In this document: positions 9,607 through 39,091 of the stretch, one piece after another
How the letters are laid out: the number at the start of each line of letters is the position of its first letter
Position numbering within the stretch: position 1 is the first letter of the stretch
Origin: Bacteroidales bacterium
Lineage (GTDB): Bacteria > Bacteroidota > Bacteroidia > Bacteroidales > VadinHA17
Length of the DNA: 39,455 nucleotides
NCBI GenBank assembly: GCA_003141715.1
Contig: PLNF01000130.1
Location: 1-39,455 of the forward strand
Direction of reading: 5' to 3'
Made by a program: the position numbers and the translations under genes
Notes under the pieces: generated by a model
The model's database searches: none
What the model was told of the DNA's origin: nothing
Seen by the model: the letters and a program-made list of their open reading frames with translations, nothing else

Positions 9607-12504
9607 TTATCTCATGCATAATGTACTGTAAGGGCACCAGGAACATTTTCCTCTGGCATCACCAGTCTTTACAAACGGTTCATCCTCACGGAAAATGGTA
9701 TTAATTAAACCTTTAAGACCAAAAAGAAATTCTTGTCTGACAGTCTCGTAATTATCAACTACTGTCTCAATCCTGCTGCCGGTTTTCAATTTGAGCTTAT
9801 CAGAGAGTAATCCTCTATTCAATTTCTTAATTTTATAGACTGATGGTCTAACAATACTGCCAGAATTTGTTGCAAGCAATGCCTCGCAATATAGTAATGT
9901 TTGTAGCCATGCGTCAGCATCTTTCTTTCTGTCGTCGATAAATAAATCACTTACAGAATTAACAGATTCTGAAACAGTACCGGTTTTGTAATCGACAATC
10001 CTGGTCACTCCGTTTATAGTGTCAATCCGGTCAATATTTCCTCCAGTAAGAATTTCGATCTGTGATCCGTTCGATAGAGAGGACAAAAGAAAGCTAAAAG
10101 TATCCTCAAGATTAAGAATAATAAAAGGCGCCAGTGCTTTGTCAGTATCCAGAATCCTGTTCAGATAATCCATTAAAACATCTCTGACTATCAGCTCGTT
10201 TCCACTTACAGAATCATTCCTGCCGGCCTTATACTTTTCATTGACTGCCTCATTAACGATCTCTGTAAGGAACTGTCTGTTCCTGATCATTCCATTCAGC
10301 ATCCCTCCACTCAGAACACTGCCAATATAAGGCTGATAGAGATTCTTCATTATCGCGTGTAATATATTACCGAGCATAGCCGGGTCAATATCGACAGAGA
10401 TATTTTCCGGTTCTTTAAGCCGGTTTACATAACGATAAAAGAACTTCATCCTGCAACTCAGCCATGTATTTATTGCAGATGGTGAAAGTGACCTTCCACT
10501 TTTCCTGTCAAGAAACAGAGATGCTAATTGTTTTGAATGTTCTTCGCTCCTATCAATTTTTTCTCCGGGGGTCAGATGTATTTTTATTTCGAAGTTAAGA
10601 TCAAGAAAATCGGGCTTCAATGCATCCTCGTATTTCATCTGAATAAGAAACCGGCTCATCTCGCCACTTCTTAATCCTTCAGAATTGGAATTATATATAA
10701 ATGTAACATTCTCAGCTCTTTGAAGAAGCCTGTAAAAGTGGTACGCATAAATGGATTCCTGATGATTGACAGATGGAAGACTAAAAGCTTCACGTAAACT
10801 GAAAGGGATAAAAGACGAACCGGCATAAACTGCAGGTAAAATGCCTTCATTAACTGACAGAATTACCAGATTCTTAAAATCGAGAGCCCTTGTTTCAAGA
10901 ATCCCCATTATCTGAATGCCGGTTAATGGTTCCCCTGAAAAAGGAACTGATTGCATTTTTAACATTCTGTCAAGAATTTTTATATAGGTATCGGTTGTAA
11001 AACTTACTTCCGGACTACTAACTATTGTTTCAAGCCTGTTTATCGACAGAACCACCCTGTATATAAACTCATTCCTGATATTGTCCTGAACGGTATTATT
11101 TGGTGACTTATTCGTATTTCTTTCATCATTTAAAGCAATCAGTGAAAGGATATCTTTAAAATAGCCGGAGAGTTCAGCCGGAGTCAAGGGTTTATTAAAT
11201 ATCTGCGCAAGAACTTCTGATTTTGAAAACCGCTCTGATGGAACCCTGGTAAGATTAGTTTTTACTATTTCCTTAACTAATTCATTATCTGATTCACTCA
11301 ATAAACCTGACAATAATGAGTGTTTAAGGATACTTATTACATCTTTGTAACTGAAACGAACCACACCATCAGTTGTTGAAGCGTTTCTCTGAAGATCCAT
11401 AAGATGCCTGATCAAAGTATAAACCAGTGTCTGCTTCAATGGATGTCCCATCGTTATATTGATATCACCCAAGTTTTCAGGGAGACTGGTCAGAACAGGC
11501 ATTAAAAGGTTTTCATCTGCAAGGACAACTGCCGTATGATGAGCATTAGTTTTAGTGATATCAGGTATCTCTTCCAATAATTGTGAAACAAGTTTGACCT
11601 GGGCCACATCAGAAGAGGCATCAATGACCCGGCGACACACTTCAGGTGCTTCTTTTGAGAGCATTGTATCGTAACTCCATCCGGATGGCATATCATTGCC
11701 GAATATTTTGAGGTTTTCCCGTAGGAAAAAGCCTGCAGAGTTCAACTTACCTTCATAAATATAGGATTTATCATAGTCCCAGCAGAACCTGGCTTTACCT
11801 GCCCTTTTAAACCGGTCCATCAGTACTTTCTCACATTCGTTCAACGCATTGAATCCAATAAAATGGACCATGTCCCAGCGTTCATTCGAAGTGTAATAAT
11901 TTTCAGTACTCTCAGCCAGCTCCCTGAATATCATGCCCTCATATGCCAGATTCTTCTTCCTGAGGGTGTTTCTAAAACCAGAATACAGATCTGAGAGGAC
12001 AGACCAGATGCTAATGAAACCCGATTTTTCATTGGTTGGTTTATCGTGATTAAAATTTGTCCAGAATCTTCTGATTATTTCAACCTGCTCTTCTGTCAGG
12101 CCTCCAAACTGCCGGTCAATATTTTTTATATCGAGCATATTACGGAATAGTAATGATGCATCAACAAGATATTTGTCAACATCATCAAAATCGTTTAAAA
12201 GCATATCACCCCAGTAGTAAAATTCATCAAAACTTTCATGCGGCTTTTTTAAACTACAGTACACTTTATATAGCTCGAAGAGAAGTATCTCATTGCCTGC
12301 TATTTGGAGTGATGAATATGATCTGAACAACTCATTGATCGTAAGAATTGATGGTACCCATACCGGTTTTTCGATCCTGGCTGCGAGATACTTCAGAAAA
12401 TATAGTCCGGCCCTTCTGTTTGGAAATACCAGGCAATGACGATTTAGAGTGTTTCCAAATTCCTTAAGAAGCGATTCAGCTATATGTTCCAGAAAGTAAG
12501 TCAT
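9607..12504 (-). CDS. AddB-like PD-(D/E)XK exonuclease subunit
   Basis: The product (about 965 aa from MTYFLEH) resembles the AddB half of AddAB recombination nucleases. It has the N-terminal CLVFPNRRAGLYFLKYL segment, where a normal Walker A lysine is not visible, so the helicase half is probably inactive. The C-terminal nuclease has GNILHAIM and RIVDYKTGTV catalytic blocks. A cysteine in INTWLSCRMKFFYRYV plus CSWCPYSTLC at the C terminus gives the C...CxxCx5C pattern of the iron-sulfur staple. An upstream ATG at 12576 exists, but the intervening residues (SNEQRAPSNEQQ) only translate a heptamer repeat, so I place the start at 12504. It pairs functionally with the AddA gene at 13591-16788. 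Confidence 0.82.
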   Translation of the reverse strand: MTYFLEHIAESLLKEFGNTLNRHCLVFPNRRAGLYFLKYLAARIEKPVWVPSILTINELFRSYSSLQIAGNEILLFELYKVYCSLKKPHESFDEFYYWGDMLLNDFDDVDKYLVDASLLFRNMLDIKNIDRQFGGLTEEQVEIIRRFWTNFNHDKPTNEKSGFISIWSVLSDLYSGFRNTLRKKNLAYEGMIFRELAESTENYYTSNERWDMVHFIGFNALNECEKVLMDRFKRAGKARFCWDYDKSYIYEGKLNSAGFFLRENLKIFGNDMPSGWSYDTMLSKEAPEVCRRVIDASSDVAQVKLVSQLLEEIPDITKTNAHHTAVVLADENLLMPVLTSLPENLGDINITMGHPLKQTLVYTLIRHLMDLQRNASTTDGVVRFSYKDVISILKHSLLSGLLSESDNELVKEIVKTNLTRVPSERFSKSEVLAQIFNKPLTPAELSGYFKDILSLIALNDERNTNKSPNNTVQDNIRNEFIYRVVLSINRLETIVSSPEVSFTTDTYIKILDRMLKMQSVPFSGEPLTGIQIMGILETRALDFKNLVILSVNEGILPAVYAGSSFIPFSLREAFSLPSVNHQESIYAYHFYRLLQRAENVTFIYNSNSEGLRSGEMSRFLIQMKYEDALKPDFLDLNFEIKIHLTPGEKIDRSEEHSKQLASLFLDRKSGRSLSPSAINTWLSCRMKFFYRYVNRLKEPENISVDIDPAMLGNILHAIMKNLYQPYIGSVLSGGMLNGMIRNRQFLTEIVNEAVNEKYKAGRNDSVSGNELIVRDVLMDYLNRILDTDKALAPFIILNLEDTFSFLLSSLSNGSQIEILTGGNIDRIDTINGVTRIVDYKTGTVSESVNSVSDLFIDDRKKDADAWLQTLLYCEALLATNSGSIVRPSVYKIKKLNRGLLSDKLKLKTGSRIETVVDNYETVRQEFLFGLKGLINTIFREDEPFVKTGDARGKCSWCPYSTLCMR

Positions 12505-36343: not shown

Positions 36344-36430
36344 TGGTGCCCAGAACAAGACTCGAACTTGCACACCGTAACCGGCACCAGCCCCTCAAGC
36401 TGGCGTGTCTACCAATTTCACCATCTGGGC
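36344..36430 (-). tRNA. tRNA-Leu (anticodon GAG)
   Basis: The 87-nt gene reads GCCCAGA at the 5' end, pairs with TCTGGGC at the 3' end, and has the discriminator A and encoded CCA (36346-36344). The anticodon stem CCAGC/GCTGG encloses loop TTGAGGG, giving anticodon GAG. A long variable arm (TGCCGG...CGGTG type) marks a class II tRNA, and the T loop is TTCGAGT. All features fit tRNA-Leu(GAG). An intrinsic terminator follows. The integrase gene lies on the 5' side of the tRNA, the reverse of the usual tRNA-integrase arrangement. Confidence 0.95.
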
Positions 36431-36532
36431 GAGGATCAACACGTTACACTTCTATCTGACATCATTTTACTAAAGATTCAGATACTTACCATGACAACAA
36501 TATTTTCTACAGAGAGGGATAAAAGAGGGGTT

Positions 36533-36554
36533 TGCTTCTCAAATGCTTCTCAAA
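36533..36554 (+). repeat. 11-bp tandem direct repeat at the integrase start
   Basis: TGCTTCTCAAA occurs twice in tandem (36533-36543 and 36544-36554), immediately before the integrase ATG at 36556. It could be a recombinase arm-site or regulatory repeat, or a chance slippage product. Confidence 0.55.
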
Positions 36555-36555
36555 A

Positions 36556-37785
36556 ATGAATGTTAAATTTTATGTAAGAAAATCGTGTACAGAAAGTAAA
36601 ATCATTATCTGTATTCTTAAAGATCATGCCAACATGTTAAGGTTATCAACCGAGCATACCATCTCAGTTAATCACTGGGATGCAAAAAGTCAGAGGGCAA
36701 AGAAGACCATGATAGGTTATGAACAACTGAATGATACCCTGGATCATCTTAAAATGGAAGTTCTTAAGCAAATACTGGAATATAAACTACACGGTGTTAC
36801 TGAATGGCCTGTACTTAAACAGTATCTCAAAAAGTATTTTCGCCCAGAGTCAGCAGAACGGATTGATGGATCCGATTCAAGATCCAGTAATCATTCTATA
36901 GTTCAGATGTTCGATGTTTTTCTTGCTGCAAGAATGTCAGAATATAAGCCTGAGACAATTCGTAAGTACAAGATATTACAGAAGGTTTTGATAAGCTTTC
37001 AGAAATTCCGCAAGAAAAAAATCCAGTTATCTGATATTTCGTTCTCTCTGATGGAAGAATTCAGGCTATACCTTCTTGTTGAACGTAAGAATCGTAATGA
37101 TACCATTTATAAAATGTTAGCAGCATTAAAATGTATGATTAAGTGGTTGAACAAAAATGGTTTTTCGATCGATTCCCGCAGTCTGGAAATTCGGCAGAAG
37201 GTAAAAGTGAAACATGACATAGTAACCCTGTCCTTGCAAGAATTATTGCAGATTGAAAGTGTCAAAGTGAATATTTACCAGGAACCAATACGCGATTGTT
37301 TTTTGTTTCAGGTTTACACAGGTCAACGATTTTCTGACATGCAGCAACTTGTACCGGAACAGGTGATGGATAATGTCTGGAAATTTAAATCCATCAAAAC
37401 CGGTAAAGATATGCATGTACCAATGGTTGGATGGTGTAGCAAAGCAAGAGAAATTGGTGAAAAGTACAGTTTCAGATTTCCAAAGTACTCCCTGCAATAT
37501 TTTAACAGAGAGATAACAAAGATTTGCAGAGAGGCTAAAATTACAAATCTTGTTAATCTTACCAGATACCAGGGGAGCAATCTTCTTCAGTTACAAAAAC
37601 CTAAGTGCGACTGGGTATCGAGTCACACTGCAAGAAGAACTTGTGTAAGTATATTGCTTGAGAAAGGTGTCCCACCTACCGTTGTAATGAAACTTACTGG
37701 TCACTCCAGCATTCAAACAATGATGAGGTATGAGAGAACTACTAATGATGCTCTAGTAAATTACCTATTGTCTATTCAGTTCTGA
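36556..37785 (+). CDS. Tyrosine recombinase / integrase (Bacteroides type)
   Basis: The 409-aa protein (from MNVKFYVRKS) has an N-terminal arm-binding domain (about 1-95), a SAM-like core-binding domain (about 113-205) and a catalytic domain with every essential residue: Arg258 in TGQRFSD, Lys281 in SIKTGK, His357 and Arg360 in SSHTARRT, His383 in TGHSS and nucleophile Tyr392 in MMRYER. The frame is open to an upstream TTG (36532), but the ATG at 36556 is the natural start. Such integrases mobilise integrative elements or invert DNA. No transfer genes or second att copy are visible within the window. It appears intact. Confidence 0.9.
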   Translation: MNVKFYVRKSCTESKIIICILKDHANMLRLSTEHTISVNHWDAKSQRAKKTMIGYEQLNDTLDHLKMEVLKQILEYKLHGVTEWPVLKQYLKKYFRPESAERIDGSDSRSSNHSIVQMFDVFLAARMSEYKPETIRKYKILQKVLISFQKFRKKKIQLSDISFSLMEEFRLYLLVERKNRNDTIYKMLAALKCMIKWLNKNGFSIDSRSLEIRQKVKVKHDIVTLSLQELLQIESVKVNIYQEPIRDCFLFQVYTGQRFSDMQQLVPEQVMDNVWKFKSIKTGKDMHVPMVGWCSKAREIGEKYSFRFPKYSLQYFNREITKICREAKITNLVNLTRYQGSNLLQLQKPKCDWVSSHTARRTCVSILLEKGVPPTVVMKLTGHSSIQTMMRYERTTNDALVNYLLSIQF

Positions 37786-38114
37786 TCTGGTAATAAATTT
37801 ACTCTTCCTTTTGATACCACTTCAAAAATAGCTCTGTAATATTCCTCATAAACAAATGGGTAAATTTAGCCTGCCAAAAACAACAATATATGTGATCTAA
37901 TCTATTGTTAGTTCTGATGGGAGATTTCTCCTGTACAGAATTTCTCCCATGTCTTAAACTTCGCCAGTTCTGCTTAGATGAAACTTGGTTCTTAGGCTAT
38001 AAAGACAACAAGTTTTTGGATCAGTTGTTACATAGGTGTTCGGTTGCTACTTTCAGCTGCAAGAAGGAACTTGTTAAGCTAAGGTATGCAGCTGAATCGC
38101 AACCTCACTTGGAT

Positions 38115-38291
38115 AGTGCGAACCTGCGGTATCCGGCATTAATCCTCAAACGCAGGCTTTATAAAAAATAATATCTTGTGATACGGCAAGGTCAGAGCCT
38201 GGCGGTAACGAGTTAACCTTGCCTTAATCACAAGATACCGCCTGCTTTACTTAAGGAATGCCGGCTACAATTCGCAAAACCGGTTCGCACT
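38115..38291. repeat. 177-nt multi-helix foldback (imperfect long inverted repeat)
   Basis: Five main helices stack co-linearly: 10 bp (38115-38124/38282-38291), 8 bp (38133-38140/38257-38264), 6 bp (38152-38157/38240-38245), 11 bp (38172-38182/38227-38237) and 8 bp (38185-38192/38216-38223). The apical loop is 23 nt. A 14-nt A/T-rich bulge (38158-38171) lies on the 5' arm against only two nt on the other side. There is no flanking target duplication, which argues against a recent miniature transposon. Confidence 0.8.
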
Positions 38292-38323
38292 TCTATTATT
38301 ATTCTTTTCAATTATCAATCCTG

Positions 38324-38349
38324 AAACCTGATCAATTGGTCAGGTTTTT
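38324..38349 (+). terminator. Intrinsic terminator after the structured region
   Basis: AAACCTGA (38324-38331) pairs with TCAGGTTT (38340-38347), extended by T-G and C-G pairs to a 10-bp stem with an AATT loop, followed by further T residues. The T-run is on the plus strand only, giving the direction of the upstream transcript. Confidence 0.8.
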
Positions 38350-38380
38350 CTATTTCTATTAATCACTAAATCAATTAATT

Positions 38381-38563
38381 ATGAATGTGAAATGTAAGAT
38401 ATGCGGAGAGTATTTTTGCCCATGCGATGATACTCTGGACCTGATTGCAGAAGGATATATTTCTTCTGACTCAGTGAACACCTGTGATAATTGCTGGGAC
38501 CATCTTCAGCTTTTTGAATTTGACAATTCAGAATCATTTTCTGATGCTGACCCAGGCTTATAA
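38381..38563 (+). CDS. Small Cys-rich, probably zinc-binding protein
   Basis: The 60-aa protein begins MNVKCKICGEYFCPCDD and contains CDNCW near residue 36, giving two CxxC knuckles (Cys5/Cys8 and Cys35/Cys38) typical of a small zinc ribbon, plus two extra cysteines (12 and 14). The C-terminal third is acidic (FDNSESFSDADPGL). I do not know a function. It sits just after the terminator of the structured region and before its own hairpin terminator at 38574. Small zinc-ribbon proteins of this kind are common accessory genes of mobile elements and phages. Confidence 0.7.
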   Translation: MNVKCKICGEYFCPCDDTLDLIAEGYISSDSVNTCDNCWDHLQLFEFDNSESFSDADPGL

Positions 38564-38573
38564 GTATTCATCC

Positions 38574-38604
38574 GGTTACCCAGGTTAAAACTTGGGTAAC
38601 CTTT
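38574..38604 (+). terminator. Probable terminator of the 60-aa gene
   Basis: GGTTACCCA (38574-38582) pairs perfectly with TGGGTAACC (38593-38601); GT/AC pairs extend it past one mismatch. Only a short TTT follows, so it is a moderately good intrinsic terminator 11 nt after the stop codon. Confidence 0.6.
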
Positions 38605-38648
38605 CAATAATTAAATGAATTTCTATTTCACATATAAACCAATGTAAA

Positions 38649-38744
38649 ATGAAAATCTTCCTAATAATATGTTTTATAATCTGGGTTATCTATCTTATTA
38701 TGAATAATAATGATAGCGAGAATAATACTTCTCCCTCTATGTGA
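38649..38744 (+). CDS. 31-aa single-pass membrane micro-ORF
   Basis: ATG at 38649 to TGA at 38744 encodes 31 residues. MKIFLIICFIIWVIYLIM is a hydrophobic helix with one basic residue at the N terminus, and the tail (NNNDSENNTSPSM) is polar and acidic. The layout suits a small inner-membrane protein with N-in topology. A possible terminator (38758-38795) follows closely, so it may be a separate transcription unit. No clear promoter or Shine-Dalgarno is visible, and the ORF could be a chance product. It resembles no family I know. Confidence 0.4.
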   Translation: MKIFLIICFIIWVIYLIMNNNDSENNTSPSM

Positions 38745-38757
38745 CAATGCTCTTTTG

Positions 38758-38795
38758 AAGCTCCGGCTGGAAGAAAGGTAATCACCGGGGTTTTT
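38758..38795 (+). terminator. Possible intrinsic terminator after the micro-ORF
   Basis: AAGCTCCGG (38758-38766) pairs with CCGGGGTTT (38785-38793) with two G-T wobbles, an 18-nt loop and a run of five T residues (38791-38795). Moderate strength. Confidence 0.5.
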
Positions 38796-39052
38796 ATAAA
38801 AATTTGTGCAATCCGGAATATGCAATCTGTTTTTTGTTTAACTTTCATATCGATTGTGAAAAGTCAGACACAAGCATTCTTTAGTTGGGGTGCGCAGCGA
38901 TTTTTACCCCATTTCACTTTTTCGCCAAAGGCGTTTTGGCTATCTCACATTGCAGCACATTTGCAACTTATTTTTAAATGTAGATATTATTTTCGCCTGC
39001 GAAAGAGTTGCAATTTCCCTTCCTCGCCAAGGCATATTAAAAATTATTTTTA
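38796..39052. other. Gene-free stretch with several small palindromes
   Basis: No supported gene. Visible hairpins are TGGGGT/ACCCCA (38886-38911), GCCAAA/TTTGGC (38924-38940) and TTGCAACT (38961-38968) with AGTTGCAA (39006-39013). The last encloses TTTCGC/GCGAAA (38991-39004). The AGTTG core recurs in the MarR operator downstream. Confidence 0.5.
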
Positions 39053-39079
39053 ATATTAGTTGCATATACCAACTAATAT
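39053..39079. promoter_or_regulatory. Perfect 10-bp inverted repeat, probable MarR operator
   Basis: ATATTAGTTG (39053-39062) and CAACTAATAT (39070-39079) are perfect reverse complements around a 7-nt CATATAC spacer. The left arm covers the TTG -33 element and the right arm ends five bases before the -7 element of the adjacent marR gene, an ideal position for autorepression. AGTTG-type half-sites also occur at 38964-38968 and 39006-39010. Confidence 0.75.
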
Positions 39080-39091
39080 ATTTTATCTTTG
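39060..39091 (+). promoter_or_regulatory. Bacteroidota-type promoter of the marR gene
   Basis: TTG (39060-39062) and TATCTTTG (39084-39091), an exact TAnnTTTG box, are 21 nt apart, the expected spacing. The predicted start lies near 39098, 18 nt before the ATG. It is the best promoter in the window. Confidence 0.7.

Follow-up and report, generated by a model that had tools for sequence, protein, structure and literature searches.

The noncoding segment at 37917–38349 of the 39,455-nt stretch of Bacteroidales DNA analysed here (contig PLNF01000130.1; hereafter, the window) is perhaps best explained, with a probability of about 0.48, as a joint for the recombination of gene cassettes that operates as folded DNA, resembling the attC sites of integrons and lying outside the known integrons. 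The observations that bear on this directly are a two-hairpin fold, covariation between its arms without an excess of G.U pairs, an upstream gene on the same strand, and homology between copies that stops on either side of a short core. A recombination joint, with the core as its region of exchange, is the simplest account common to all of them.

Structure and extent of the element

The initial annotation had proposed an undescribed structured noncoding RNA beside a tyrosine recombinase, drawing on a density of inverted repeats said to be far above that of the other intergenic regions. The density itself was borne out: the segment contained 9 perfect stems of at least 8 bp where 1.35 were expected (maximum of 4 in 20 mononucleotide shuffles), and 27 perfect stems of at least 6 bp against a mean of 19 (20 mononucleotide shuffles). 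It was not unmatched elsewhere, however. Among the 7 gaps of at least 100 nt in the window, that at 38564–39088 was nearly equal, with 1.71 stems of at least 8 bp per 100 nt, compared to 1.85 in the segment; this gap is likewise dense in inverted repeats and is well folded (z = -5.6, compared to -8.1 for the segment, both with mononucleotide shuffles). When folded as RNA, 37917–38360 reached -144.4 kcal/mol, whereas dinucleotide shuffles averaged -102.6 (z = -7.4, none of 100 as low), in agreement with the proposed structure. The expected terminator was found at the end of the segment (38324–38352), and no Rfam family was matched at gathering score by the window or 8 relatives, all matches at lax E-values falling far below it, as anticipated from the failure to recognise a known family. 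Nor was there a convincing gene; an 88-aa open reading frame at 37905–38171 had no Pfam match, and its start lay outside the part shared by homologues. The extent of the segment required correction, as the unit common to homologues begins near 38031 rather than at 37917, and the sequence to its left (37786–38030) folds weakly as RNA (z = -2.0). Folded as single-stranded DNA, the two-hairpin unit returned z = -8.5 on the top strand and -9.5 on the bottom strand.

The unit lies on the plus strand and opens with a core at 38031–38058 that resembles a recombination site and forms the 5' arm of the first hairpin (H1, ~38033–38110). Among relatives the core consensus is roughly AACCAGGTAAAW/AGGTGTTCGGGTTGCTCTCTTTAT; its left half is not preserved in the window, where the motif AGGTG begins at 38034. 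H1 comprises the core arm and an imperfect inverted copy of it, and is predicted as a DNA fold on both strands. Within it, the helix 38-43/76-80 of the covariation alignment (A4) showed double change in 5 of 5 pairs, and the pairing GGTTGC/GCAACC was present in alignment A2. The second hairpin (H2, 38115–38291), which corresponds to helices 3–9 of A4, is long and imperfect; its arms include 38115–38124 and 38282–38291, it appears in DNA folds, and its 5' arm bears a conserved small side hairpin. In L079 and L090, a similar extra segment of ~55 nt was seen at the identical point in the 3' arm of H2. The intrinsic terminator that follows on the plus strand (38324–38352), a feature of type A copies (see below), covaries with abundant G.U pairs and behaves as RNA.

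To the left of the unit, the window contains a tRNA-Leu(GAG) on the minus strand (36344–36430), which may be an integration site, and on the plus strand a tyrosine recombinase with Phage_integrase and SAM5 domains (36532–37785), which neighbours the hairpins. A noncoding stretch 3' of the recombinase gene (37858–37972) recurs in the window's own genome (L097, ~9890–9990, contig C105), with 83% identity over 71 bp, and for longer by eye; the recurrent copy adjoins a serine recombinase and, by eye, small genes resembling HicA/HicB. To the right lies a gene for a 60-aa zinc-finger-like protein (38381–38563, plus strand), a member of a family (F3) found on the right of type A hairpins, with 12 members in 12 of 39 loci; the protein matched Pfam FYVE with E = 4e-4, which is under the curated cut-off. 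It is followed by a short open reading frame of 31 codons, resembling a membrane peptide by eye (38649–38744, plus strand), and a similar frame start was seen by eye 3' of the hairpin in L032 and L102. The window end cuts a MarR-like gene beyond the zinc-finger-like gene.

Distribution and genomic settings

Searches with DNA found copies in the same Bacteroidales genus, while a different genus of the order (G047) contributed a single match of 27 nt; a 29-nt match at L040 was judged to be due to chance. A covariance model built on the middle 165 nt (R1), with 46 candidates scored per genus genome, placed the element at 39 positions, counting that in the window, spread over 14 of 62 genus genomes and numbering up to 11 per genome; 2 of these 39 matches were weak (E above 1e-4). 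Among 295 genomes sampled across the order, R1 matched the window's own genome only (9 candidates scored per genome). There was no match to the element in the phage and plasmid collections, and the exact core pattern had zero matches in viral contigs. In the genome_contigs collection, the exact pattern was found in 6 stretches titled as Bacteroidales, Bacteroidia or Bacteroidetes MAGs, which apparently equate to genus contigs of G083 (twice), G029, G035, G015 and G006; their isolate names include 'fen' in two cases and 'LacPavin ... SED' in another. Among the papers surveyed, all open-licence, on palindromic repeats, attC-like folds and gene cassettes, none was seen to describe the element, so far as titles and the beginnings of abstracts reveal.

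Copies occurred in two settings. Type A copies sit in what looks like a mobile element, arranged (with the parts list not complete in every locus) as a gene for either a helicase-like protein (F10) or one with a helix-turn-helix at its C-terminus (F16), each assigned by eye, followed by a 106-aa protein (F0), DUF6876 (F1), variable cargo and the hairpins; the 3' side comprises a terminator (sometimes two), a RadC-like gene (F2) and F3, the zinc-finger gene. In many of these type A copies the terminator lies ~30 nt ahead of the start of the RadC or zinc-finger gene. The type B copies are scattered, show no terminator by eye and share a tail of their own; decay was evident, the hairpin tips being lost in L094, L095 and L096, and parts of H1 in L077, L089 and L093.

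The helicase-like protein of 566 aa (L104:583-2283 and homologues) has its motifs by eye; one family member was below threshold in Pfam and had no match in NCBIfam or PHROGs, while a second had no match in Pfam. The 106-aa family (L104:2758-3084 and 14 homologues) was 5' of DUF6876 in 16 of 16 loci, and for the one member scanned Pfam, NCBIfam and PHROGs all gave no match. Another conserved noncoding block (GTGCTGCA...GGGCACG...) lies 3' of the DUF6876 gene in L080, L081, L098, L100, L102 and L104, followed in several loci by a CCATCCA...TGGATGG terminator (by eye), and is possibly another structured part of the type A element. For the proteins encoded by upstream genes, matches in a Pfam scan of 10 of the 38 listed included subtilase, FISUMP, TPR, endosialidase-chaperone and beta-helix proteins, with 2 of the 10 unmatched; a supposed TIR-like cargo was discarded because Pfam found TPR repeats only.

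Covariation and the nature of the fold

Covariation was evaluated with 28 of the 39 model matches (A4), after excluding L077, L078, L079, L087, L089, L090, L092, L093, L094, L095 and L096 on account of insertion, divergence or decay. RNAalifold proposed 52 pairs for these 28 copies, 41 of them with double change; the main set comprised 48 pairs, leaving out the 4 basal pairs, in which one end of the unit pairs with the other. In accordance with the covariation that a genuine structure had been expected to display, both sides had changed in 39 of the 48 pairs, and 93.9% of cells were paired. Double-changed cells numbered 319, against a shuffle mean of 100, and the covariation score was 0.595, compared to 0.198 in shuffles, of which none of 500 reached the observed value; sliding the partners gave no more than 0.09. 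One of the five covariation measures, further pair types, was unremarkable (76 against 71.0, a value reached by 29 of 500 shuffles). Covariation of this strength indicates that the fold is either under selection or continually corrected. The 9 aligned type B copies were Watson-Crick in 409 of 423 cells, and zero pairs were double-changed among themselves; these copies are therefore either young or unconstrained.

RNA tolerates G.U pairs but not A.C mismatches, and the two kinds of cell were therefore counted on the top strand as G.T and A.C. At the variable pairs of the 48-pair set, the ratio of G.T to A.C was 17:29 (of 1081 cells), a slight lean towards A.C (p = 0.1) that nearly disappeared with wider pair sets. 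The yardstick was RNase P from the same genus, aligned for 28 genus genomes (28 of 36 matches above cut-off used) and passed through the identical pipeline, which gave 166:15 at variable pairs (of 1312 cells) and 246:16 at all pairs. The element's own terminator gave 21:5 (of 128 cells) in 16 type A copies. The outcome depends somewhat on the pair set, and cells are not independent, but the contrast at variable pairs was large in every set. Adding the 4 basal pairs changed the ratio to 29:31 at variable pairs and 70:32 over all 52, the latter because the basal pairs alone contribute 43:2; two of these four had no Watson-Crick double change, and in DNA folds they vie for the 3' arm of H2. When the pairs were taken from the DNA fold of the window itself, the ratio was 64:74 for the variable ones and 101:88 for the full 84. 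The structure thus looks to be held mainly by Watson-Crick pairs and to be about symmetrical between strands, as a DNA fold would be; the lack of a G.U excess at variable pairs suggests that the fold acts at the level of DNA. Template switching, whereby one arm is copied onto the other, could yield an equal pattern, and is likewise a process at the DNA level.

Homology breakpoints at the core

The positions of genes and of homology were compared across 65 sites, consisting of 37 hairpin copies and 28 sites that matched the core pattern, after 7 pattern sites within open reading frames had been dropped (one of which, L162_3, may be genuine). At 56 of the 65 sites, the upstream gene was on the strand of the hairpin. 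Among the 37 hairpin copies, 12 had the stop codon of this gene no more than 60 nt from the core, as did 21 of the 28 pattern sites, and 32 of these 33 genes were on the same strand; downstream genes were likewise mostly on the same strand (45 of 61).

All 2080 pairs of sites were compared for homology, omitting L087, L089 and L094 and with the core position uncertain in 6 of the 65 sites. This identified 343 pairs with homology downstream only, 38 with homology upstream only, 15 with both, and 467 that shared the core alone. Where downstream-only homology included a match crossing the core (192 pairs), it began between -15 and +1 in 170 (range -29 to +10). Where upstream-only homology did so (25 pairs), it ended between +7 and +24 in 24 cases and at +31 in the other; the remaining 13 of 38 upstream-only pairs had no match across the core. 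Hence, over the 65 sites, homology breaks on both sides of a core of roughly 25–39 bp, that is, the 5' arm of H1. For example, the window and L100 were 91% identical over 571 nt from -5 with unrelated left flanks, and L172 and L174 were 100% identical over 141 nt from -2 with different genes on the left, both being at the ends of MAG contigs. Conversely, L166 and L085 were 94% identical over 1018 nt up to +24 and differed on the right, and L076 and L172 were 91% identical up to +23. Several of the upstream-only pairs were paralogous FISUMP genes, so recombination is not required to explain these.

Cores also occurred alone, as 27–33 nt of the H1 5' arm followed by other sequence, and in 62 genomes the core pattern (with at most 2 mismatches) had 53 matches, against 7 for a reversed control. 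A terminator-like module, CCATC...GGATGG, was observed between a solo core and the next gene at L088:5332, in L027/L096 (oriented positions 2455 and 7777) and at L095:2506. In L084 the junction of gene and unit reads ...TTTGTAGGA/AAGGTG, where its relative L079 reads ...GTAGGAGGTG and has AGGTG, the beginning of the core, at the corresponding point; the L084 junction resembles a secondary site. A chromosomal site common to L075 and L096 was syntenic from ~2 kb downstream, while the genes directly flanking the hairpin differed. No clean empty site or circular cassette was found; the one attempt, made with the right flank of L084 as query and 7 candidates scored per genome, retrieved only this flank and two matches of 33 and 44 nt.

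A scan for promoter consensus upstream of the hairpin was positive in 4 of 36 cases (shuffle mean 0.8, maximum 4). A promoter in the type B tail is not claimed (3 of 15, against 0.6 expected; shuffle maximum 3). As most core-crossing downstream-only homology starts at the base of the hairpin, a promoter moving together with the hairpin would have little space.

Recombinases and integron membership

The initial annotation had noted the adjacent tyrosine recombinase and counted its regulation among the possible roles. A tyrosine recombinase was the direct upstream neighbour in just 2 of 39 places, the window and L101 (a few loci end at contig edges), and the recombinase proteins compared (family F6) were 22–48% alike; being adjacent in only one other place, and diverse, the recombinase is not an obvious partner. 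No recombinase was observed to accompany the hairpin from locus to locus. Integron integrase was absent at the TIGR02249 cut-off from all 60 genus genomes searched, where weaker matches to tyrosine recombinases occurred in all 60; the best TIGR02249 match scored 138 of 265 bits, and all 14 control genomes had weaker matches also. The 8 or 9 neighbour proteins scanned included no recognisable relaxase, HUH Rep or Y1/HUH transposase, and no transposase was recognised in the recurrent neighbour families, a minority of which were scanned against libraries.

The R boxes of attC sites read GTTRRRY and RYYYAAC. None was apparent on visual inspection of the unit ends, AAGGTG.../...CACTT and TGCGAGCC.../...GGCTCGC. 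As in attC, a conserved Watson-Crick fold was combined with variable sequence, and the site lay directly 3' of a gene on the same strand. Nevertheless, given that R boxes were not seen and that no integron integrase reached the cut-off in the 60 genomes, the element is not considered a member of the attC family. The terminal inverted repeats and target duplications typical of MITEs were not apparent by eye at the borders of the unit, and copies were dispersed without long arrays.

Discussion

The proposed joint would work as follows. A core of ~25–39 bp, usually situated on the 3' side of a gene, would be the region of exchange; together with its inverted copy (H1) and H2, it would fold on single-stranded DNA or as a cruciform, like an integron attC, and solo cores would be simple double-stranded sites. 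Upstream genes would be swapped against downstream modules, these being the hairpin with RadC and zinc-finger genes, the hairpin with a chromosomal tail, or a terminator with the next gene. A dedicated recombinase would presumably act on the joint and require the folding of one strand. The crossover point is probably within AGGTG, and joints dependent on the strand would be expected inside AGGTGTTCGGG. On a more ambitious reading, which seems rather unlikely, this is a second, independent kind of integron in an environmental Bacteroidales genus: a recombinase distinct from IntI would shuffle gene cassettes, many for exported proteins, at DNA sites of two hairpins, with the 5' arm serving as the core for crossover.

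The main rival, a genuine possibility if somewhat on the improbable side, is that the element is a dispersed palindromic intergenic repeat akin to ERIC, REP or MITE, moved by some agent and without a dedicated cassette system; it would settle near the 3' ends of genes, have its arms matched by template switching and be rearranged by homologous or illegitimate recombination. Single dispersed copies in long contigs would be expected of such a repeat, as would the lost tips and H1 parts in type B, the want of double change among the 9 type B copies and the lack of a linked recombinase. Yet the unit ends bear none of the terminal inverted repeats or target duplications looked for by eye, no transposase was recognised in the partly scanned neighbour families, and transposition of a 260-bp unit does not explain solo cores with unrelated flanks on both sides.

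The strength of the fold and its covariation could also belong to a structured RNA, either an independent one whose end is the terminator or a leader that controls the RadC and zinc-finger genes, for which the position of the terminator ~30 nt before those genes in many type A copies and the G.U-rich basal pairs of RNAalifold (43 G.T, 2 A.C) also speak. We consider this quite improbable: the G.T to A.C ratio at variable pairs is not that of an RNA, G.U being no commoner than A.C, unlike in RNase P or in the terminator of the element itself; the basal pairs conflict with the DNA folds over the 3' arm of H2; type B copies keep the fold without a terminator (by eye); homology mostly begins at the hairpin base; and Rfam offers no match at gathering score. 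The structure is therefore real and its reading as RNA doubtful. Of the roles first suggested, a single-stranded DNA substrate is now favoured, while those of an RNA guide or decoy and of an RNA regulator of the recombinase were not supported. An origin of replication or transfer for the type A mobile element, with hairpins like a single-strand origin or oriT, would suit a DNA-level fold and the helicase-like gene F10 (by eye), but is highly improbable given that the scan of 8 or 9 neighbour proteins revealed no relaxase or HUH Rep, that type B copies have no element genes directly beside them, and that breakpoints at the core would go unexplained.

As a folded recombination joint, the element is closest to integron attC in being a structured, sequence-variable DNA hairpin 3' of same-strand genes, with exchange-like joints on one arm and conserved irregularities of the stem, and H1, with its core and inverted copy, has the attC layout (structural features of attC are treated in PMC2727003). 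It differs in having no IntI over the cut-off, no recognisable R''/L''/L'/R' boxes, two hairpins (~260 nt) rather than one, solo cores, and dispersed rather than arrayed copies; the occurrence of a simple, unfolded core recalls attI. With ERIC, REP-BIME and MITE elements it shares dispersed intergenic palindromes near gene 3' ends and decaying copies, detected here in a single genus, but it is a two-hairpin unit without visible terminal inverted repeats or target duplications, its core occurs alone, and a subset of copies belongs to a mobile element. Minimal mobile elements of Neisseria carry alternative cargo genes between conserved flanks, as is seen here, except that the exchange points in this case fall on a short core within a site that folds. 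Structured RNAs in Rfam, which include a radC motif, are comparable in their strong conserved secondary structure, and many type A copies are 5' of a RadC gene; the element differs in having no gathering-score match and in tolerating G.U no more than A.C at variable pairs.

The comparison of G.T and A.C cells against an RNase P yardstick is a simple test of DNA fold against RNA fold, and could keep elements that fold as DNA from being misfiled as noncoding RNA. To our knowledge, folded single-stranded recombination sites are a special trait of integrons and a few phages. If the proposed joint is real, a separate lineage would possess a folded-DNA joint for gene exchange, such that this solution would have arisen more than once, and a new cassette system would be open to testing.
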